Assembly (NCBI RefSeq): GCF_016127315.1
Contig: NZ_CP065997.1
Location: 4,650,001-4,714,000, forward strand
Direction of reading: 5' to 3'
DNA from: Achromobacter deleyi
GTDB taxonomy: Bacteria; Pseudomonadota; Gammaproteobacteria; Burkholderiales; Burkholderiaceae_B
Length of the DNA stretch: 64,000 bases
Each line of letters starts with the position of its first letter. Within the stretch, counting starts at the first letter, position 1. Below are positions 1 to 9,229 of the stretch, in pieces. Below the pieces are notes generated by a model that saw nothing but the letters and a program-made list of their open reading frames with translations, was not told where the DNA came from and made no database searches. The position numbers were made by a program, and so were the translations under genes.

Positions 1-492
1 CTGCCTGGTGATCACGCCATCGAGGGTGGCGGCGATGTCCCATGAGCGATCGCGCGTCAGGTTTCTGGAGAGAATGAGCAGACGCAGGCGGGCGGGGTCT
101 TCGGGCTGCAACGGCGTGAAGCGCAGCGCCCACATCTTGGGGTGGAAGGCCCCGCCTTGAGGGGCGGCGACCTCGACGATGATGCGTTCGAGCAGCGAGC
201 AAAGGCGGGAATGTGGCCGGGCGCTCGCCTGGATATGGCCGGCGTCGGTGAAGACGACGAGGCGGCCGGCGATGCGCTCGGCGCCTTCCAGCAGCGCCAG
301 AGGATGAGAGAGAATGTCGTCGCGGTTCTCGGAGGCGAAGAGCGCCAGACTGACCGGCACGGCGAGCGCGGTCTCGAAGTCGAGCGAGAAGGTCGCGGCG
401 ACCGCCGAGTCGAAGACATAGCCCGCCGGCGGCTGAAGATTGGCGCCGTAGAGCATTCGCTGTTCGGGATCTAGGCTGCGGCTATTCAGCAT
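1..492 (-). CDS. Phospholipase D-fold family protein, 5' part only (cut by window edge)
   Basis: The reading frame stays open from an ATG at 492 to the window edge, giving 164 codons of the N-terminal part. The ATG overlaps the stop of the upstream DUF6361 gene by 11 bp, so the two are probably translationally coupled. Two pieces match the PLD catalytic pattern: an HxK motif in GGAFHPKMWALRF (about residues 114-126), followed by LILSRNLTRDRSWD, where the Asn of SRNLT sits where PLD enzymes carry their conserved Asn. In other bacteria DUF6361 and PLD-type genes occur together near DNA helicases. The catalytic C-terminal half is outside the window, so it could be a nuclease or a catalytically dead homologue. 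Confidence 0.72.
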   Translation of the reverse strand, partial: MLNSRSLDPEQRMLYGANLQPPAGYVFDSAVAATFSLDFETALAVPVSLALFASENRDDILSHPLALLEGAERIAGRLVVFTDAGHIQASARPHSRLCSLLERIIVEVAAPQGGAFHPKMWALRFTPLQPEDPARLRLLILSRNLTRDRSWDIAATLDGVITRQ

Positions 493-1660
493 GGGCGAGA
501 TCCCGCAGGTGGGATTTGGCCTGCGCCCAGCGGAAGCTGAGGCGATCTGCGCCCGATGCGCCGGTCCAGCGGTCACGGACAGCGTGATTAGCGTAGCGGG
601 ACTGGCTGGTCTTGAGCCGGCGTTCGCGCTCCTCGACGAGCCGCCGCGCCGCGGGCGCCGAGATTACCTGCTCCGTCCCGGCCAGAACCAGATCGCGCCA
701 CTCATTCACGAACTGCTTGGCGGCTGGTCGGACGGCGTGCGCTGGGTGCTCCACGACATTCCAGAAATCATCGAGCGACCACGCGCGGACTGCGCCGGTA
801 TCGAGTTCGTCGCTCCAGGCTTCAAGCCGAGCGCGATAGTCCTCTATCCAGTCGTCGCGCTGGCGCAGCTCGCTGAGCGCGAGGTTATAGAGCAGCGCGG
901 CGCCGTGCATCACATGGGAGAAGATTTCCCCATGCTGGACGAGGCGGCGCGCTGCGGATGGAAACGCCGACAGATGGGGGTGCGTCCAGATGTAGTCGCA
1001 GCCCGCGTCGATGCCTTCGCGCGCCAGCATCGTGAGCAGTGCGGTGGGCTGGCTGGCGATCAGGCGGTCGATGAGGAATTGCGCCTCGTCGGTGGTCAGG
1101 CGGAAGACGGCGTGCTCAAGCAGGTCGCCGGGCATCTGAGGCAAGGCTGGATTCCAGAAGGCGGGCGTCTGGGCGCCGGCCAGAGCGTCTTCGCCGCTGG
1201 ATGCGCCGCGCGACCGGCCACGGCCCCGCAAGGCGACGAACAGACTGTCGAGCGAGCCCGGAAAGACCCGGATGCCCCACGCGCCCAGGCCAGCCCAATA
1301 GACGGAACTCGGCAACCGCTGGAGCCGTGGTCCTGCATCCCGGCCGATGATGCCGTTGAACTCACCGCCGGCTTTCAGGGCGTCAGCAAGCCGGATTTCG
1401 GTGTCGCGCGCCTCGGTGCGGAGCTGCGCTTCAGGGACTTCGCGCTTTTCCAGCGCCCGATAGAGCCAGGGAATGAACAACATGTATCGCAGGCGCGTCT
1501 GGATCGTGCTCGTGCCCGGAAAGAGGTGATCGGCGATGGAATCCCGGATCGCCCCCAGCCCCAGCTCGTCGCGGGTCTCGCGCTCCTGAAAGAGCGCCAT
1601 GATGCGCTGCGCGCGCTCCCGCTCGGCTTCATCGAAATCGATCCAGGCAAGAGACGACAT
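482..1660 (-). CDS. DUF6361 family protein
   Basis: This 392-residue protein opens with MSSLAWIDFDEAERERAQRI and then DELGLGAIRDSIADHLFPG and STIQTRLRYMLFIPWLY, the conserved N-terminal block of DUF6361 proteins. It has no signal peptide or membrane segment and no catalytic motif that I recognise. It starts 4 bp after the stop of the UvrD-like helicase gene, and its end overlaps the PLD-like gene, so it sits in the middle of a single leftward operon. Its biochemical role is unknown. Its position between a helicase-nuclease and a PLD protein suggests a partner in DNA processing or defence, which is inference from context. Confidence 0.8.
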   Translation of the reverse strand: MSSLAWIDFDEAERERAQRIMALFQERETRDELGLGAIRDSIADHLFPGTSTIQTRLRYMLFIPWLYRALEKREVPEAQLRTEARDTEIRLADALKAGGEFNGIIGRDAGPRLQRLPSSVYWAGLGAWGIRVFPGSLDSLFVALRGRGRSRGASSGEDALAGAQTPAFWNPALPQMPGDLLEHAVFRLTTDEAQFLIDRLIASQPTALLTMLAREGIDAGCDYIWTHPHLSAFPSAARRLVQHGEIFSHVMHGAALLYNLALSELRQRDDWIEDYRARLEAWSDELDTGAVRAWSLDDFWNVVEHPAHAVRPAAKQFVNEWRDLVLAGTEQVISAPAARRLVEERERRLKTSQSRYANHAVRDRWTGASGADRLSFRWAQAKSHLRDLAHAE

Positions 1661-1664
1661 GGGC

Positions 1665-4600
1665 TCAGGCCGCCTCGCTCTCGGTCGGCTTCGTCGGCAG
1701 GACGGGAATGACGGTGCCGGAGGTCATCAGCACGATCAGGCCGCGGTCGGCGCCGGTCATGTCGAGATAGGCCCGCACCTGCGCGCGATAATGATCGAGC
1801 GTTCCCGGCGTCGGCGTCACATCGCTTTTCCAGTCCACGACGACGGCGGGGCGGCCCTCGGCCGTCAGGGTCAGGGCATCGGCGATCCCGGCCGTTGCGG
1901 TTTCCACGCCGTCGGCCGCCTGTGCGGAATAGACGGGAAATTCGGCGAGAAGACCCGGCCGCAGGGCCGCGATGTCAGGCAGAGCCAGGGCGCGGGCCAC
2001 GCAGGCCGCCAATTCCTGCGCCGACAGCCCCGTCGCCGGGTTGGCGACAGGACACTGGCCGAGGGCGCGGATGAGGTGGCCAGCTCGTTCGGTCAGGGCG
2101 GCTTCCTCCTCCTGGGTTTCGCCGGTCAGCACCTCTTCCATGAGCTTGTGGAGGATCAGCCCGCGCTCGCGGCCGCCCTGCACCGGGGCGACGGCATCCA
2201 GCTCGGGAGGCTGGTCGTCGCCTGACCCTGTCCAGAGGGCCGCCTCTTCTTCCCGCATCACGGTCCCGGCGGCGTTTTCGTCACGGCTGGGCGCGAGCCA
2301 GGTCAACCGCGTCTGCGCGGCCGCGATGGCTTCGGCTTCGGCGGCGAAGCTCGCGCGCGTCTGGGTGTTGCCCGCGCCCGCGCCTGCGGCCGCGAGACCG
2401 ATAGGTAGGTGAGAGACGTCCAGGCCGGGCAGGTCGGCGAGCGACAGATCGACGAGACCGATCCAGGCCGATTTCGACGGCGTGGCGTTGAGCCGGGGCA
2501 AGACGAGGAGTTCGCGGGCGCGGGTGGCCGCGACATACCAGAGCCGGATGCGTTCGCGGTCCAGCTCCTCCTTCTCCGCCTGGCGCGCGGTTTCGTAGCC
2601 CTCGGGCACGACTCCCAGGACCGGGCAGTAGAAGGTCTCGGTCTGGCGGTCGATCACGGCGCTCTCGGGCGCCATGACGCCGGTCATGGTGTTGACCGGA
2701 ATGACGATCGGCCATTCCAGCCCCTTGGCCGCGTGCATGGTGAAGAGCGCGACCGCTTCCTCCTGGGCGTCGGGCCTTCCCTCGACGGCGCGTGCCTCGT
2801 CGGACCACGCCGCTGTCATCGCCTCGGCGAAGGCGCGCAAACCGCGCACGGCGTAGCCGGTCGACAGGCTGAGATAGAGATCGACATTGGCGAGCGCACG
2901 CTCGGCCTGGCCGCGATGGCGCTCGAGGAGGAGCGGACGGACGCGCAACACATCCACGGCCTGCGAGAGCAACTCGTGCGGGGTCGTGCTGTTGCCGCGC
3001 CGGGAGAGCGATTGCAGCCGCTCGATGACGTCGCGCGCGAGCGGGTGCGCGATGATGGCGGGATCGATGCTGAGATCCAGACGCGGAATCCGATCCGGCT
3101 GTTCCTCCGAGCGCGGAAGCCCCCAGATGATGTCCAGCAGGTCTTCTTCGGTGAGTCCGACAAGAGGCCCGCGCAGCAGCGCGCCGAGCGCCAGCGTGTC
3201 GCGGCGGTCGGCCAGAACGCGGGTCAGCGCGATCAGATCCTGCACCTCCTGGCGGCGGAACAGCCCCTTGCCGGCTTGTGTCGCCACGGGGACGCCGCGG
3301 CGTTCCAGGGCCTCCTCATAGCGCCACAGCTCCGCGCCGGTTGGCGCCAGCAAGGCGATGTCGCCCGGCTGGCAGGGGCGCTCGGCGCCGCTACGACGGT
3401 CGATGATGGGGTGGCTTTCGATCAGCCGGGCGCACAGCTCGGCGATGGCGTCGGCTTCAGCATCGCGCTGCTGTTCGGCGCTGGCCTTGCCGTTTTCGTC
3501 GGCCACGGCGATGTCGAGAGCCGCCAGGCACAGGCCGCCCCGATCGTCATGGAATGGGTCGAGCGCGGTGAAGCCCGGCTGGCCATCGGCCGAGAGAACG
3601 GCCTCGAAGCGCTCGTTGACGAAGGTGAGGATCGAGGCGCAGGAGCGGAAGTTGGTGGAGATCGACAGAAGGCTGTCGGGGTCCTGGGCGCGGAAGGCGT
3701 CGCGCGCCTGCACATAGGCGCCGACGTCGGCGCCCCGGAAGCGATAGATCGCCTGCTTCGGGTCGCCGACCAGGAAGAGCGCGCCCGGCCGGATTTGGAA
3801 GCGGGTCCAATCGTCATCGCCATCGACCGGCTCGCCACACAGCCGCCAGAAGATTTCGGTTTGCAGGGGATCGGTGTCCTGAAACTCGTCGACGAGGACA
3901 TGGGCGAAACGCTGTCCCAGCGCCTCGCGCACGGCGTCGTGGTCGCGCAGCAAGTCGCGCGCGGCGAAAATCAGATCGTCGAAATCGAGCTGGGCGCTGG
4001 CGCGCTTGTGGTCGCGATAGCGTTGCAGGATCGGACGCGCTTCGCCGATCAGCGCGGCCAGGGCATGGCCGGCGACGGCCTGCGCCAACGCGACCCAAGC
4101 GTCGCAACAGGCGGTGTAGTGGGTCTCGGCGGCGTCGTTCAGCCGGTCGCCATCGGCCTTGGAGAGACCGGCCTGTTTGGCCGTGGCGGCCCATTTGCCC
4201 TTCTTGCGGTAGGAGGCGAAAGCGCCGGTCTTGGTGCAAAGATCCGGGTGGGGCCGCGCGGTCAGGAGCCGAACGAGGCCCGCGGGCGTCGCGGGATCGG
4301 AACCGTTCGCCACGGCGGTCGCCATTTCAGCCAGCCGCTCGACGATCGTTACCGTTTCCGGCTCGGCCGCCGCCGTGCCATCCATGAAGTTCGCGAAATC
4401 CGCCGTGGCCTGCCGGAACGCCGTGAGGTGGCCGCCAAGTGGAGAGACGGGCGGGGCCGTGAGTGTGGGGCGACGGCGTATACTCTCGGCGATCTTATGG
4501 ATGAGCGCCACGGTCTCGCCGGGGCTGTGCAGCACCAGCTCGGCCAGGATACCGCCCTGACCGCCGGACAGGCGTTCGCGCAGCCAGCCATCGACAATCT

Positions 4601-5066
4601 CAAGGAAGGTGAGGTCGGCCTGGTTGCGATCCGTAACGCCGGCGCCGGGATCGATGTCGGCCTCCGCCGGATAGGGCTTGATCAGGCGCTGGCAGAAGCC
4701 GTGGATGGTCGAGCAGGTGATTTCGTCGATCGCGGCGCTGGCGGCGGCGAGATTGTCGCGATGGGTCTGGGATAGCCCATCGGGCAGCGCCACACGCAGC
4801 TCGGTCGCGATCGTGCCGGCCGAGAGATCGGCAACGAACTCGCGGACACGTGATAGCAGCTCGCTCGCGGCGAGTTCGGTGAAGGTGACGGCGGCGATGG
4901 AGCGCGGCGCGACGCCTTCGGCCAGCATGGCGGCGATGCGGCCGGCCATGACGGCGGTCTTGCCTGAGCCCGCGCCGGCCTCGACCAGGATCGAGCGATC
5001 ATGGAGGCTGATCGCATCGCGGCGCGCGCCGTCGTCCTTCAACACTTTGGACACGCTGCTCATCAT
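1665..5066 (-). CDS. AddA-like UvrD/Rep helicase with C-terminal PD-(D/E)XK nuclease
   Basis: This is a superfamily 1A helicase of about 1133 residues. Visible motifs in order are Walker A GAGSGKT (31-37), the Walker B-type LVDEFQDTDPLQ, GDPKQAIYRFRGAD, TMHAAKGLEWPIV and the motif VI region YVAATRARELL. Near the C-terminus VVDWKSD and YRAQVRAYL match the RecB/AddA nuclease motifs, with D and K in DWK and Q and Y in the QVxxY helix. I chose the ATG at 5066 because it forms a 4-bp ATGA overlap with the upstream AddB-like gene; a longer frame to 5132 only reads that gene's end out of frame. It probably forms a heterodimer with the AddB-like protein, but the genomic setting is not a housekeeping addAB locus. 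Confidence 0.88.
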   Translation of the reverse strand: MMSSVSKVLKDDGARRDAISLHDRSILVEAGAGSGKTAVMAGRIAAMLAEGVAPRSIAAVTFTELAASELLSRVREFVADLSAGTIATELRVALPDGLSQTHRDNLAAASAAIDEITCSTIHGFCQRLIKPYPAEADIDPGAGVTDRNQADLTFLEIVDGWLRERLSGGQGGILAELVLHSPGETVALIHKIAESIRRRPTLTAPPVSPLGGHLTAFRQATADFANFMDGTAAAEPETVTIVERLAEMATAVANGSDPATPAGLVRLLTARPHPDLCTKTGAFASYRKKGKWAATAKQAGLSKADGDRLNDAAETHYTACCDAWVALAQAVAGHALAALIGEARPILQRYRDHKRASAQLDFDDLIFAARDLLRDHDAVREALGQRFAHVLVDEFQDTDPLQTEIFWRLCGEPVDGDDDWTRFQIRPGALFLVGDPKQAIYRFRGADVGAYVQARDAFRAQDPDSLLSISTNFRSCASILTFVNERFEAVLSADGQPGFTALDPFHDDRGGLCLAALDIAVADENGKASAEQQRDAEADAIAELCARLIESHPIIDRRSGAERPCQPGDIALLAPTGAELWRYEEALERRGVPVATQAGKGLFRRQEVQDLIALTRVLADRRDTLALGALLRGPLVGLTEEDLLDIIWGLPRSEEQPDRIPRLDLSIDPAIIAHPLARDVIERLQSLSRRGNSTTPHELLSQAVDVLRVRPLLLERHRGQAERALANVDLYLSLSTGYAVRGLRAFAEAMTAAWSDEARAVEGRPDAQEEAVALFTMHAAKGLEWPIVIPVNTMTGVMAPESAVIDRQTETFYCPVLGVVPEGYETARQAEKEELDRERIRLWYVAATRARELLVLPRLNATPSKSAWIGLVDLSLADLPGLDVSHLPIGLAAAGAGAGNTQTRASFAAEAEAIAAAQTRLTWLAPSRDENAAGTVMREEEAALWTGSGDDQPPELDAVAPVQGGRERGLILHKLMEEVLTGETQEEEAALTERAGHLIRALGQCPVANPATGLSAQELAACVARALALPDIAALRPGLLAEFPVYSAQAADGVETATAGIADALTLTAEGRPAVVVDWKSDVTPTPGTLDHYRAQVRAYLDMTGADRGLIVLMTSGTVIPVLPTKPTESEAA

Positions 5067-7717
5067 TCCGCCTCCCAGACCTGAGCGACTTCGCCAAGCC
5101 GCTCCGTGGCGGCCGGCATTTTGCGTTTGCAATAGGTGGCGCTAGCGTTGGCCGGCAGGGCGAAAGCGAGGTCGTCATAGTCGCCGCCGGTATCCGGGCC
5201 AGGCAGGGCCGCGCCTCCGGCGAGACTCGACCGTGCCGCGCGCAGATAGCCCGTGATCTCCTCGAGCACGGCCTCGGGATCGTCGAGCTGGAGATTGACG
5301 GGCTCGCGCGGATAGAGCAGCGAGGCGCTGATGGCGACATCGTCGCCGAGGAGCGCCTTCACCGCGAAGGCATAGAGACAGCGCTGAAGCTCTCGTCCGC
5401 CATTGAGGCGGATGTCGCCGCGCGGCGGCCGTCCGGTCTTATAGTCCCGCACGAGGGCGCGCTTGCCGTCGCCCGAGATGTCGAGCCGGTCGATATAGCC
5501 GGCGATGTTGAAGCCCGTGTCGGGAATCGCGACCGGCTCGCTCGCATCCCAGGGCGTTTCCGCGTCGGATTTCGGCTCCAAGCCGCCGAAGGGCACCTCT
5601 CCGTAGGAGCGTGCGCCCGGCAGGACATCATCACCATAGGACAAGGCGCGGCCCGCCATCACGCGGGCGTCGTCGAGCGTGCGGCTCCAGATGACGGCCG
5701 GCGGAACCGGGCGCTCGCTTTCCCAATCGGCGGCGACGGCTTGTGCGGCCCGCGCCACCGCTGCTTCGATGGCCTCGGCGTCGGCGGAGGCAAGACCGTC
5801 TCCGGTTTCGAGGTCGCGCAAGGCGCGGTCGAGAACCAAGTGAACGAGATCGCCGATCCCGAGCGCGTCGAGCACGAGCGGTTCGGTGCTGCTCTGCGGT
5901 TCATGCCATCCGAACGCGTAGACCCACACGAAACTCAGCGGATTGCGCAGCAGGCGGCGCAGCGAGCTGGCCGACTGGGTGCGGCCGAGGATGGCGAGAA
6001 CGAGCGGATGATCTGCCCGCACGAGCCCGTCATGGGGAGTAATCTCGGCCTGCCCCCAGTCGCGCCAGCAGCCCTGCGCACCGACCGCTTGCGGATCGGC
6101 TGCGAACTCTTGGGGCCGGGCCATGAGGCGGTCTGTTTCGCTGAAGGCGTGCGCCGGTGTCGCGTTGCGGCGCAGATAGGTTTCGTCGCCACGCCCGGCG
6201 AGCAGAGGGCTGCGACCCAGGAGACGCCCGTCGTTGTCGCGCCGGGCGCGCGACAGAACGACGGTGTCGGCCGTCGTGGCAAGGATCGTCTCGAAGTCGC
6301 GGCGGTCGGCGAGGTTGACCGGCAGCGGGTCGAGCACCTGGGTCGGGATGATATGGCCCGGGATCAGCCGGTCCTCGGCGATCCCGCGCGGCCAGCGCGA
6401 GGAATTAAGCCCGATGAGCCGCACGAAGCGGCGGGGCGATGCCGCGAGCGCGCTGGCCGGCATCCAGGCGACGCAGACGCACGCTTCCAGTCCGTCGTCC
6501 TGCTTCAGGGTCTCCAGCGTGGCGTCGATCGAGGCGGCGGGGCCGGCGAGCAGAGCCTTGCGCCAGATCGCTAGCGCGCGGCCCTTGAGGAAGGCTTCTC
6601 CGATCTCGCTGGCGGCCGCCGATCCTTTCACAAGGGTCTCGACCGCCGTGCGCAGCGCAGCAACGTGGTCGGCGCCGTCGGGCCAGTCTTCTGGCGTCAG
6701 CCGGGCCAGCAGGCGGTTCCAGGCGCCTAGCGTCGAGAGCGGCGCATCGGTCGGCAGCACCCGCAGCCAGCCTTCGGGCAGGGTCTCGAAAGGCCCGCTG
6801 TCCCGGCAGAGCGCCGCGAGGCGGCGCAGCCGCGACTGCGACAGGCCGCGAACTACGATGTCGGCCAGCGCCGCAGCCGCCTGGCCCTCGCGGGTGGCGA
6901 CGGTGCGGATGCCATGGATGAAGTGAAGGTCGATGTTGGCGTCGGCACGCAGGGCCAGGAAATGATCGTCATAGTCGGCGGGCGAAGCGGTCGCGATGGC
7001 GATGTCCGAAGCCGGGATGCCCGAGGCAAGCAGGCTGCGCGCCCAGCGCATCGCCTCAATGGCCTCGTGATAGGCCGTCGCCGCGCTGGCGGCACTGATT
7101 CCCGGCGCATGCGCCGGTGCGCGCGAGACCGTGACGCCGGTGCCGTCCAGCCATGCGGGAACGCTCCTCGGGCCGGCCGTCCATCGCACGGGGATATGGG
7201 CGGTGAGCGCCTGGAGCAGCGGCCGCCAACAGGGCGAGAGTTCGGTAAGGCCGACGATCTCCAATGGGCCGAGGACCGCCGTGGCATGACAGATACGGGC
7301 GGTTGCGGCGGTGACGATGTCGCGAGGCCGCATCATGCCGGACGGAAGCTGGTCGAGGACGGCCGCTTCCAGACGCGCGATGGCGGCGAGACGCGGGTGA
7401 TCGGCCGCGCGTGCGGCAAGATCGATGCCCGCGCGCCAGGCTTTGTGGAGCGTGTCGGCCGCGGCGTCGATCATGCCGGGAAGAGCCTTGATGCTCTCCA
7501 ACTCCCCCATCGGCGTGGCAGGCAAGGCCGCCTGGATGGCCGCGCGCAGGCTCTCGTCGTCGATAGGGCGGGCGAAGCCGCCCGCCAGCCGGACGGCGGC
7601 CTGCTCGAAGGACATGATCTGGAGACCGTGCCGACCACCAAGGCTCGCCGCCAGGCGACTCACCCGCATGGCGAGGCGACCGTGAATGATCAGGGTAGAT
7701 CGGTGAGTAATGCTCAT
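5063..7717 (-). CDS. AddB-like PD-(D/E)XK nuclease family protein
   Basis: This 884-residue protein has a degenerate helicase-like N-terminal half without a clear Walker A motif. Its C-terminal PD-(D/E)XK domain shows SASSLRRLLRNPLSFVW, GDLVHLVLDRAL (the conserved His of RecB-type nucleases), LVRDYKTGRPP (catalytic D and K) and ELQRCLYAFA (Q and Y). The start at 7717 (MSITHRSTLIIHG) overlaps the stop of a small upstream gene by 4 bp; extending to 7909 would read that gene in another frame. Together with the AddA-like partner it should unwind and degrade DNA ends. Four-cysteine Fe-S ligands typical of some AddB proteins are not obvious. Confidence 0.85.
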   Translation of the reverse strand: MSITHRSTLIIHGRLAMRVSRLAASLGGRHGLQIMSFEQAAVRLAGGFARPIDDESLRAAIQAALPATPMGELESIKALPGMIDAAADTLHKAWRAGIDLAARAADHPRLAAIARLEAAVLDQLPSGMMRPRDIVTAATARICHATAVLGPLEIVGLTELSPCWRPLLQALTAHIPVRWTAGPRSVPAWLDGTGVTVSRAPAHAPGISAASAATAYHEAIEAMRWARSLLASGIPASDIAIATASPADYDDHFLALRADANIDLHFIHGIRTVATREGQAAAALADIVVRGLSQSRLRRLAALCRDSGPFETLPEGWLRVLPTDAPLSTLGAWNRLLARLTPEDWPDGADHVAALRTAVETLVKGSAAASEIGEAFLKGRALAIWRKALLAGPAASIDATLETLKQDDGLEACVCVAWMPASALAASPRRFVRLIGLNSSRWPRGIAEDRLIPGHIIPTQVLDPLPVNLADRRDFETILATTADTVVLSRARRDNDGRLLGRSPLLAGRGDETYLRRNATPAHAFSETDRLMARPQEFAADPQAVGAQGCWRDWGQAEITPHDGLVRADHPLVLAILGRTQSASSLRRLLRNPLSFVWVYAFGWHEPQSSTEPLVLDALGIGDLVHLVLDRALRDLETGDGLASADAEAIEAAVARAAQAVAADWESERPVPPAVIWSRTLDDARVMAGRALSYGDDVLPGARSYGEVPFGGLEPKSDAETPWDASEPVAIPDTGFNIAGYIDRLDISGDGKRALVRDYKTGRPPRGDIRLNGGRELQRCLYAFAVKALLGDDVAISASLLYPREPVNLQLDDPEAVLEEITGYLRAARSSLAGGAALPGPDTGGDYDDLAFALPANASATYCKRKMPAATERLGEVAQVWEAE

Positions 7718-7875
7718 AGCAGCACGCCCACTTGTTCGCTGCTGAGTTTGGTGGCCGGCCAGAGCCCCCCTTCCACCGGGTCGCATTTTGTAAAGTCTGC
7801 CAATTTGGCGAAGAGAACTACGTCGATCTTCAGCTCGGCAGCGACGGCCGGACCTTGCGGTTGTGTCTCGTCCAT
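7714..7875 (-). CDS. Small protein (53 residues), first gene of the helicase-nuclease operon
   Basis: This short frame begins MDETQPQGPAVAAELKIDVV and ends SSEQVGVLL, and its TGA overlaps the ATG of the AddB-like gene by 4 bp. The start is preceded by a purine-rich GGGGA about 5-6 bp upstream, a plausible ribosome binding site. It has no recognised domain, no signal peptide and no cysteine pair. The coupling and spacing argue for a real leader gene rather than noise, but I cannot assign a function. It could be a small accessory subunit, a translational leader or the vestige of a longer gene. Confidence 0.5.
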   Translation of the reverse strand: MDETQPQGPAVAAELKIDVVLFAKLADFTKCDPVEGGLWPATKLSSEQVGVLL

Positions 7876-7898
7876 GGAATCCCCTGTGGCGCCCCTCC

Positions 7899-7922
7899 GT
7901 AACAGGCATTACGCCCTGTTAC
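7899..7922. promoter_or_regulatory. 24-bp inverted repeat upstream of the helicase-nuclease operon (putative operator)
   Basis: GTAACAGG and CCTGTTAC form perfect 8-bp arms separated by 8 bp. The centre lies about 35 bp upstream of the small-protein start at 7875, where a repressor could block transcription or initiation. The arms differ from the palindrome beside the XRE gene, so the two are probably bound by different proteins. Confidence 0.4.
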
Positions 7923-8040
7923 GCTCTGCCAAGATATTAGCGCTAGTTGCCAGACATTTCGGCAGGCAAGAGCCAGCGCAGCGCGGGAGGTAGATCGGGG
8001 CCGGCGGATCCGGTTCTTGCAGGTCACGGCAGGCAGGGGT

Positions 8041-8066: not shown

Positions 8067-8084
8067 AATCGCTTGCTATTTGCC

Positions 8085-8576
8085 ATGAATCTCATCGATA
8101 TCGGCCATTCCGTGCGGGTCCGGCGCTCTGAACTGGGCTTGTCCCAAGCGCAGTTGGCTCACCTCAGCGGCCTGTCTCGTCAGACGCTGGTCGGCCTGGA
8201 GAACGGCACCCTGAGCGATCTGGGCGTCAACCGGGTGGGAGAGGTCATGGCGGTGCTGGGTCTGGACAGTCCGAAGCCGGATACGCAGGCGCGGCGCAAG
8301 AAGCGCGGGCTCTGGATGGCCGCCAAGACGGCGAGTGTCAGCTATGCGCAGGAACTGGCGCCCGAGACGCTGGAGCAAGCCTTGGCGAGTGGGGAAGTAC
8401 CTGCTTCATTTGCTCCGCACCTGACGCATTTGCTGGATGAGGCGCCCGTGCCTGTCGTCGTGATGGCTGTTGAGGAGGCTGCCTCGCATACACACCAGCC
8501 GCCAAAGCAGGTCTGGCGCAACGTGGCGAAGCTGGCCGGATCGTTGTCCGTGCATCGTCGCGAACTGTGGGCATGA
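8085..8576 (+). CDS. XRE-family helix-turn-helix regulator, antitoxin-like
   Basis: The 163-residue protein has an N-terminal XRE helix-turn-helix at about residues 5-55 (SELGLSQAQLAHLSGLSRQT then LENGT). A C-terminal part of about 100 residues, containing KQVWRNVAKLAGSL, is not one I recognise. It is followed directly by an AbiEii-type nucleotidyltransferase gene with a 4-bp ATGA overlap, the usual arrangement of a regulator or antitoxin with its toxin. I chose the ATG at 8085; a TTG 12 bp upstream in frame is possible. It probably binds the palindrome just upstream. Confidence 0.75.
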   Translation: MNLIDIGHSVRVRRSELGLSQAQLAHLSGLSRQTLVGLENGTLSDLGVNRVGEVMAVLGLDSPKPDTQARRKKRGLWMAAKTASVSYAQELAPETLEQALASGEVPASFAPHLTHLLDEAPVPVVVMAVEEAASHTHQPPKQVWRNVAKLAGSLSVHRRELWA

Positions 8577-9229
8577 AGTCCGGAGCATTGCCCAGCGGTC
8601 CCTGGGAAAAGCTGTTCCCGCGGGCGCTGGCGCTGATTGACGAGATCAGTCGATATGGCGGCATTACGGACCCATTCTGGACGTTGGGTGGTGGAACGGT
8701 GCTGATGTTTCGGTACAGCCATCGGCTGAGCAAAGACATCGACATCTTCGTGCCTGACCCCCAGTACCTCGGCTTTGTGTCGCCGCGATTGAGCGACACC
8801 GCTGCGGATTTGACGCAGGACTACACCGAGCAATTAGGTACCTTCGTCAAACTGCAGTTCGAGGAGGGCGAGGTCGATTTCGTCGCTGCTCCCAATTTGC
8901 TGGAAGATGCCTGGGACACATGGGATATCGGCGGTCGCGCAGTCAAAGTAGAGACTGCCGCTGAAATCATTGCCAAGAAGATGGACCACCGCGGTGATCG
9001 GGTCACGGCGCGGGATCTTTTCGACTTTGCGCTCGTGATCGAGCGCGAGCCTCGGCAGCTTCTGGCAGCGACGCCATTCCTTCTACGCCATCGGGAGGCA
9101 TTCCTGTCCCAGATCCGAGCGCCGCATGCCAGCTTGCGCGCTGCGTTCGAGGCCATCGCTACGTTGGAGTACACGCCCAGCTTCGATCATTGCGTAGCCG
9201 TGGTCGGGGATTTTCTGGGTGAACTGTAG
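8573..9229 (+). CDS. Nucleotidyltransferase AbiEii/AbiGii toxin family protein
   Basis: The 218-residue protein shows the minimal nucleotidyltransferase signature: LGGGTVLMFRYSHR followed by LSKDIDIFV, with GG and the DxD metal-binding aspartates, and a third acidic site in VDFVAAP. The segment ETAAEIIAKKMDHRGDRVTARDLFDFAL is the conserved helical region of AbiEii-like proteins. AbiEii enzymes transfer nucleotides to RNA substrates and act as toxins in abortive-infection or toxin-antitoxin modules. The ATG at 8573 overlaps the stop of the XRE gene. No typical AbiEi partner is present; the XRE protein takes that place. Confidence 0.82.
   Translation: MKSGALPSGPWEKLFPRALALIDEISRYGGITDPFWTLGGGTVLMFRYSHRLSKDIDIFVPDPQYLGFVSPRLSDTAADLTQDYTEQLGTFVKLQFEEGEVDFVAAPNLLEDAWDTWDIGGRAVKVETAAEIIAKKMDHRGDRVTARDLFDFALVIEREPRQLLAATPFLLRHREAFLSQIRAPHASLRAAFEAIATLEYTPSFDHCVAVVGDFLGEL

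Follow-up and report, generated by a model that had tools for sequence, protein, structure and literature searches.

Azaca is a defense system of three genes, zacA, zacB, and zacC, reportedly described by Millman et al. in 2022. It appears, with ZacC, in a published list of helicases of superfamilies 1 and 2 (SF1/SF2; PMC12278908). The DNA end-processing enzymes RecBCD and AddAB are known targets of phage inhibitors and, according to a 2026 preprint, a hub for defense systems (PMC13192584). One paper presents RecBCD as a hub of immunity and a target of phage inhibition, and reports that gp5.9 of phage T7 blocks RecBCD of Escherichia coli but not AddAB of Bacillus subtilis (PMC9836394). The synergy between Druantia III and Zorya II is reported in the preprint to need intact RecBCD as a shared DNA-processing hub and to be abolished by Gam or gp5.9 (PMC13192584). 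Here, we analyze a locus of Achromobacter deleyi where an AddAB-like pair and Azaca share an operon. The window, i.e., the whole stretch of 64,000 nucleotides under study, covers positions 4650001-4714000 of the single-contig 6.99-Mb genome (NZ_CP065997.1), and the adjoining DNA on its left was also taken. It is close to certain that the locus consists of an Azaca system and of an extra AddAB-like pair that is exchanged among defense systems.

Within the window, the operon comprises four long genes on the minus strand, in the same direction and with close junctions (Table 1). The AddB-like and AddA-like genes overlap by 4 bp (positions 5063-5066), a gap of 4 bp separates the latter from zacA, and zacA overlaps zacB by 11 bp. 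The zacB gene leaves the window (genome positions 4648636-4650492, 618 aa from the ATG at window position 492) and overlaps, again by 11 bp, the gene of the ZacC helicase, which lies beyond the window edge at 4645473-4648646 and encodes about 1060 aa (1057-1066). Gene starts come from script-made gene calls and are approximate. An earlier note, written from the sequence of the window, had described a tight leftward run of AddB-like, AddA-like, DUF6361, and PLD genes and had placed the end of the last gene, and anything after it, outside the window. Pfam and PADLOC matches bear out the run, and what lies outside is the end of the PLD gene followed by zacC and by genes that match mad8, mad7, and mad6.

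The core of the operon is already known, because its last three genes are zacA, zacB, and zacC, adjacent and in this order, which is the Azaca system. The PADLOC profiles of Azaca (PDLC03828-03830) match ZacA (E=6.4e-136), ZacB (E=3.5e-172 on the whole gene), and ZacC (E=0, 1148.8 bits). ZacA is the DUF6361 protein (Pfam E=3.5e-91). Its AlphaFold2 model (pLDDT 69.6, pTM 0.70) is predicted to be mainly helical, and Foldseek retrieved no PDB fold for it at an E-value of 0.001 or better. ZacB has no Pfam match at E=0.01, and its HxK motifs (H117-P-K119 and H307-A-K309) are kept in at least 93% of 31 ZacB proteins. Conservation is the same for the SF2 helicase motifs of ZacC (Walker A GLGKT at 47 and DEFQ at 259; at least 93% of 27 ZacC proteins). 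The earlier note saw in the locus a set of five genes without match to a named system. We reject a five-gene unknown system, since the core is Azaca by PADLOC, whereas for the complete set of five we also found no named system. The fifth member was a small protein upstream of AddB. A 53-aa open reading frame (ORF) does exist there and meets the AddB-like gene by an ATGA overlap, but its sole relative at a meaningful E-value among the loci searched is a 100%-identical copy in locus L032. Lacking conservation beyond that copy, it was rejected as a part of the operon.

The pair upstream of zacA is of the AddAB type in the broad sense. The AddA-like protein is an SF1 helicase with a C-terminal PD-(D/E)XK nuclease and has the expected motifs, and the AddB-like protein has a helicase-like N-terminal fold and a PD-(D/E)XK nuclease. 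In the former, Pfam finds UvrD-helicase (E=1.1e-53), UvrD_C (2.8e-22), and PDDEXK_1 (5.8e-7), and its family profile retrieves the AddA structure 3u44_A at E=6.5e-60. All of 12 AddA proteins compared have Walker A and DEFQD unchanged, and 11 retain D1064, D1079, and K1081, the exception being a copy cut short beside an insertion sequence (IS; L021). In the AddB-like protein, Pfam finds PDDEXK_1 (E=2.2e-17), and residues H627, D744, D759, K761, Q779, and Y783 are invariant in 20 homologs. Its structural model is of low confidence and good for domain-level matches only; the best PDB match by Foldseek is AddB (4ceh_B, E=4e-9), followed by AdnA, and UvrD and AddB tie when the model is aligned with VIA-align 2. 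A search of the PDB by sequence with the AddB profile gave no credible relative. By eye, the AddB-like protein has no Walker A motif. No cysteine is invariant in the 20 homologs, and hence they do not share the four-cysteine iron-sulfur cluster that is typical of B. subtilis-type AddB.

This pair is an extra paralog and not the housekeeping enzyme of its host. The AddA-like protein scores far below the equivalog cut-offs of housekeeping AddA (294.9 versus 860.75 bits for addA_alphas, 219.3 versus 707.65 bits for addA_Gpos). We hand-picked 20 genomes from the 80 loci of relatives presented below, and all 20 hold a canonical AddA over the cut-off (972-1579 bits) besides the mobile copy (262-309 bits). 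The A. deleyi genome itself has a second RecB/AddA-type match (E=5.0e-45) at position 3205679, in a frame of 1186 aa that is probably RecB-like. This second match and the canonical AddA of the 20 other genomes led us to reject the idea that the pair is the only end-processing enzyme of the host. In their best segments, the AddA of the window and the canonical AddA of the 20 host genomes have only 25.8-36.6% identity, and inhibitors of the host enzyme may therefore not bind the former.

The pair recurs beside other defense systems. We scanned 84,980 species genomes for AddB, obtained 184 relatives, and kept the best 80 loci, which are thus close relatives. The usual layout is a left module, AddB-AddA, and a right module. 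Modules were labeled loosely at first count, with PADLOC run on representatives only and BREX names taken from record annotation. The representatives gave strong matches (SngA 4.3e-103, SngC 1.9e-273, HmaA E=0, HmaB E=0, HmaC 3.5e-283, REase_III E=0, SIR2 6.4e-156, HerA 9.7e-153). The loose labels of several loci stand on weak or few matches (e.g., L067, L077, L083, L086, L105, and L110). Left of the pair, the 80 loci have Hma (24), a ubiquitin-like/UvrD module (13), BREX-1 (11), type III restriction-modification (RM) with an HKD-Snf2 helicase (5), Shango (4), or another RM system (1), while 14 are unrecognized and 8 too short. On the right, we found Azaca of type a (15) or b (4), the helicase Hel3 alone (14) or with ZacA/ZacB (8), SIR2-HerA (4), the unknown gene hyp16 (4), and inverted Shango (2); 17 are unrecognized and 12 too short. 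L082, for which there are no gene calls, is counted as unrecognized. Many of these partner proteins bear helicase, methylase, or nuclease names.

Both flanks are readable in 65 of the 80 loci, and 58 of these have at least one module by loose labels, including 6 that rest on the ubiquitin-like module alone ("Ub-UvrD", which has no PADLOC name). With strict thresholds (50% identity and coverage of 40% of the reference), a recount finds a named system in 47 of the 65, ubiquitin-like genes only in 4 more, and neither in 14; without the three loci that gave some of the references (L033, L097, and L102), a named system is found in 44 of 62 at 50% identity. Over all 80 loci, the strict counts are 22 for Hma, 19 for Azaca, 10 for BREX, 6 for Shango, 5 for type III RM, and 4 for SIR2-HerA, with two systems in 12 loci. 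Among plasmids, 64 records have an AddB-like match, 40 of them typed as conjugative, and 14 of the 19 that we opened, chosen for variety, have at least one module by loose labels. The relatives are thus not found mainly in core loci without defense or mobile neighbors, the finding that the earlier note had named as speaking against its proposal. As a control, we searched 17.5-20 kb around the canonical AddA of the 20 hand-picked genomes with the reference proteins (leaving out AddA/AddB, AbiE, WYL, and response-regulator proteins) and found no module in any of them. Around the mobile AddA of the same genomes modules are found in 20 of 20, that of L090 being weak only (SIR2 34%, HerA 31%). This contrast is somewhat favored because the references came from mobile loci.

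The junctions of the pair with its neighbors are operon-like. The 4-bp overlap of AddB and AddA is also the median of 97 such junctions. In 10 of 16 loci, 4 bp separate AddA from ZacA; for AddA and Hel3, the median gap is 14 bp (n=25). On the other side, the annotation of L018, L019, and L023 leaves 2 bp between the end of SngC and AddB; the script gene calls place the start of AddB later and give 50 bp in 7 of 8 loci. Some neighbors are more widely spaced, with 111-291 bp from AddA to SIR2 and 222-294 bp from AddA to hyp16. In 53 loci (e.g., L033), the gene immediately upstream of AddB is that of a divergent WYL regulator, at a distance of at least 121 bp (median 236). Since BrxR, a WYL protein, is reported to regulate a BREX system (PMC9122589), the left and right operons may, by analogy, share control through this regulator. 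The copy in the window has neither the WYL gene nor a left system of the recurrent kinds; a pair of XRE and AbiEii genes occupies the place that these take in many relatives.

The flanks have been exchanged repeatedly. A quick tree built from 98 AddB proteins implies at least 21 changes of the left module (70 labeled loci) and at least 24 of the right module (61 labeled loci), or 21 if the two Hel3 types are merged. Shuffled labels need more (means of 38.8 on the left and 35.9 on the right in 40 shuffles), and because the observed changes are fewer, we conclude that a module is inherited for some time before it is swapped. We also made 13 DNA comparisons between hand-chosen pairs of loci. The window and L097, which carries Hma and SIR2-HerA, share 6004 bp at 91.2% identity, a stretch that begins 15 bp into AddB and stops 34 bp short of the end of AddA, and homology of the window with the differently equipped L097 and L039 stops within 60 bp of the edges of the pair. 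Other comparisons place the seam on one side only. L036 and L035 have the pair in common, as well as 4.9 kb on its left; 11 bp past AddA they part, L036 continuing with Azaca and L035 with SIR2-HerA. L069 and L074 share the pair and the right side and differ on the left (Hma versus BREX-1), and their seam is within or beside the WYL gene, some 1.2 kb upstream of AddB. L075 and L073 have the pair and Hel3 in common and differ in having Shango or BREX-1, with the seam at the start of AddB. Identity ranks are also reversed between loci of Bradyrhizobium (L020: AddB 67%, ZacA 77%) and Mesorhizobium (L014: AddB 84%, ZacA 42%).

What the pair does for these systems can be proposed with less assurance. 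We give an even chance to the simplest reading, that it is a dedicated, inhibitor-tolerant, and portable end-processing hub for exchangeable defense systems, here for Azaca on an element resembling an integrative and conjugative element (ICE). AddBA would load on free double-stranded ends, either of incoming phage DNA or of phage DNA that is already damaged, AddA would unwind the DNA, the two nuclease domains would degrade or resect it, and the products would feed the linked systems. Through this putative coupling, the ZacC helicase and the ZacB nuclease would act on the same DNA, with ZacA as a partner, and would protect the cell against phages. As the hosts already have their own RecBCD or AddAB, the added value is probably an enzyme that is co-expressed with the defense system and that phage inhibitors of the host enzyme miss. 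A wider version is no more than tentative in our view: unrelated systems (Azaca, Hma, BREX-1, type III RM, Shango, SIR2-HerA, and the ubiquitin-like modules) would each have docked on the same mobile AddAB-like engine, which would replace the host RecBCD/AddAB as hub and would not be recognized by phage inhibitors of the host enzyme.

Several results weigh against the hub. The AddB-like protein lies far from known AddB, and a pTM of 0.33 marks its full-length model as poor. In L015, L060, L061, and L099, AddA is split in two, and L021 has a short copy next to an IS. The pair stands without any recognized module in 7 of the 65 readable loci by loose labels and in 14 by the strict recount, and near the pair of the most distant plasmid relatives opened (L029-L031), the annotation names no more than AbiE- or HipA-type genes. 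Azaca is also found without the pair. We searched DUF6361 in sets of 399, 385, and 398 genomes and obtained 13 places; leaving out the A. deleyi locus itself and that of the L033 genome, 11 were fetched, and 8 have readable upstream DNA, which makes for a small, unselected sample. Of these 8, 2 have AddB and AddA (L139 and L141). In one more (L148), Azaca is faced by Hel3 and AddA, where the DNA available runs out before AddB; one (L145) has just a distant AddA-like gene (28%), and 4 (L142, L144, L146, and L147) have neither AddB nor AddA. As for the exchange, 22 of the 95 inner branches of the AddB tree are unsupported and some branches are long, the association of modules with the pair is partly inherited, and exchange of flanks also fits mere co-residence in a recombination-prone defense island.

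This last point leads to a second explanation, which we consider rather unlikely, namely that AddBA is a free-standing defense system of two genes that degrades phage DNA in the manner of RecBCD, with neighbors that merely gather in the same exchange-prone islands. The readable loci without a recognized system, the distant relatives L029-L031, and the large gaps that separate AddA from SIR2 and hyp16 are consistent with it. However, the short and constant junctions to ZacA and Hel3 and the 2-bp annotated junctions to SngC look like integrated operons, and in many loci the pair sits between two modules.

The DNA that carries the operon is probably mobile, as the earlier note had supposed. To the left of the operon lie two genes recognized by eye as guaB and guaA. 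An integrase gene comes directly after guaA, followed by genes for a DUF3363 relaxase, a TraG-type protein, a T2SSE (TrbB-like) protein, TrbE, TrbL, and TrbI. Next come the gene of a methylase and matches to mad6, mad7, and mad8; they are convergent with the Azaca operon and follow zacC. The element is ICE-like and carries a MADS-like system together with Azaca. A search for an attachment repeat after guaA gave a longest shared exact word of 14 bp, which is not convincing, and the right end of the element was not located. Among the best 80 of the 184 loci, the sole 100% AddB match is in Pigmentiphaga sp. NML030171. The 12.1-kb block of AddBA and ZacABC is 96.9% identical to that of the alphaproteobacterium Novosphingobium aquimarinum (L033), which points to a recent transfer between classes. 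A phage-borne origin was rejected, as 50,697 phage records hold no AddB-like match at E=1e-5.

Given this location, the pair might instead serve the mobile element, in recombination, repair of transfer intermediates, or cassette exchange, the defense genes being cargo. Its presence on many conjugative plasmids and on the ICE-like element agrees with such a role, and the conserved 6 kb of the pair could be the homology that allows exchange. We regard it as improbable: defense modules are the immediate neighbors in most readable loci, whereas transfer genes near the pair were seen only in some plasmid loci (e.g., L018 and L021, without a count), and all 20 hosts tested already have a housekeeping enzyme. 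SIR2-type proteins are typical abortive effectors, and one may also think of the pair as a guarded bait, to which phage anti-RecBCD/AddAB proteins bind as to the host enzyme, the right-hand effector (Azaca, SIR2-HerA, or Shango) sensing the inhibition and stopping the cell. This is very improbable, even if effectors are swapped while the pair stays and phages are reported to encode inhibitors of this enzyme class (PMC9836394), since a pure bait does not need catalytic residues as well conserved as these (all 20 AddB, 11 of 12 AddA) and inhibitors of the host enzyme may not bind an AddA with so little identity to the canonical one.

In the open-licence literature (titles, starts of abstracts, and term counts of the papers listed), we found no paper on a mobile AddAB pair shared by defense systems, nor an experiment on it in the papers covered, and DUF6361 is unmentioned in the part searched. 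The AddAB-coupled form of Azaca is new; its core is a known system. If the hub reading is true, a dedicated copy that travels with defense systems would explain how a processing hub stays available to them under blockade of the host enzyme, and the hub idea would become directly testable. The results also suggest that a partner in the same operon may be missing from catalogs in which Azaca, Shango, Hma, or BREX is a closed set.

The surroundings of the operon in the window (Table 1) are largely as the earlier note had them. Pfam matches support the AbiEii-type module with its XRE regulator, an HNH nuclease (HNH_5), and a Mutator-family transposase. The two inverted repeats announced upstream are there; both are short and may have arisen by chance, and the DNA around them matched only L032 among the upstream regions compared. 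A 788-aa open frame on the plus strand (window positions 2409-4775), antisense to AddA, was taken as a shadow ORF of GC-rich DNA.

Table 1. Coordinates of the features at the A. deleyi locus (window positions, unless marked as genome positions)
Feature	Position	Strand	Remarks
ZacB (PLD nuclease fold), N-terminal part	1..492	-	PADLOC ZacB match on the whole gene
ZacA (DUF6361), 392 aa, first Azaca gene	482..1660	-	PADLOC ZacA and DUF6361 matches
AddA-like protein, 1133 aa	1665..5066	-	SF1 UvrD helicase and PD-(D/E)XK nuclease; extra to the housekeeping enzyme
AddB-like protein, 884 aa	5063..7717	-	Helicase-like N-terminal fold without Walker A; C-terminal PD-(D/E)XK nuclease
53-aa ORF	7714..7875	-	The "small protein" of the earlier note; probably not a conserved gene
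Perfect inverted repeat, 9-nt arms	7898..7923	.	Divergent upstream region
Second inverted repeat, 9 nt, 89% complementary	7966-8020	.	Divergent upstream region
XRE-type regulator and AbiEii-type nucleotidyltransferase, divergent	8073..9229	+	Pfam HTH_3 E=5.9e-8, AbiEii E=1.1e-16
Part of the ICE-like element (L135, L134, L002)	genome 4595569-4645106		Integrase, relaxase, Trb genes, MADS-like cluster

The related loci contain further genes of interest. The two main types of Azaca are approximately 42% identical in ZacA (L013 and L014) and are both docked onto closely related AddBA; more distant forms occur in L144 and L148. In L014 (6528-13782), a response regulator, an unknown gene, a second UvrD helicase, and multiubiquitin, ThiF, and DUF6527 genes precede AddBA, and this run is conserved in L016, L022, L055, L059, L070, L072, and L095. 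PADLOC gave no system name to the run of L014 (multiubiquitin and DUF6527 without match, ThiF with a weak E1-E2 match), and it is possibly an unnamed ubiquitin-like defense system. Hel3 is an SF2 helicase of 1113 aa (L017:20062-23403; L042:16065-19406) with only weak PADLOC matches of PbeA/Cas3 type, and in some loci it is followed by distant ZacA/ZacB or faces a distant ZacC. A protein of 1409 aa with Sacsin/TmtA-type matches lies near HmaA (L033:577-4806; L013:6669-10898), and its cluster is present in 13 loci. In a Desulfosarcina plasmid (L028:9525-20084), nucleotidyltransferase, ThiF, and Mov34 genes stand directly before AddBA and a metallophosphoesterase gene after it; from annotation, we take the first three to be similar to CBASS type II.

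Among known systems, Gabija resembles the locus in having a UvrD-type helicase in a defense operon (GajB profiles match at E-values down to 8.9e-37). However, the AddA found here has its own nuclease domain and an AddB partner. Gabija was rejected, as its GajA partner was not found among the seven operon and neighbor proteins scanned (for AddA, among the best 25 of 49 families). Compared with AddAB, AdnAB, and RecBCD, the pair is an extra and mobile paralog, with an AddA far under the orthologue cut-off and an AddB that lacks Walker A (by eye) and invariant cysteines. The Druantia III-Zorya II synergy, as reported in the preprint (PMC13192584), has in common with our proposal a RecBCD-type enzyme as the hub between defense systems, but there the hub is the chromosomal enzyme of the host, whereas here a dedicated copy travels with the systems. 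The closest relative is Azaca itself, all three genes of which are present in the same order; the profiles match over nearly their full length, and the PLD and helicase motifs are intact. What sets the A. deleyi locus apart is that they form one operon behind an AddAB-like pair.

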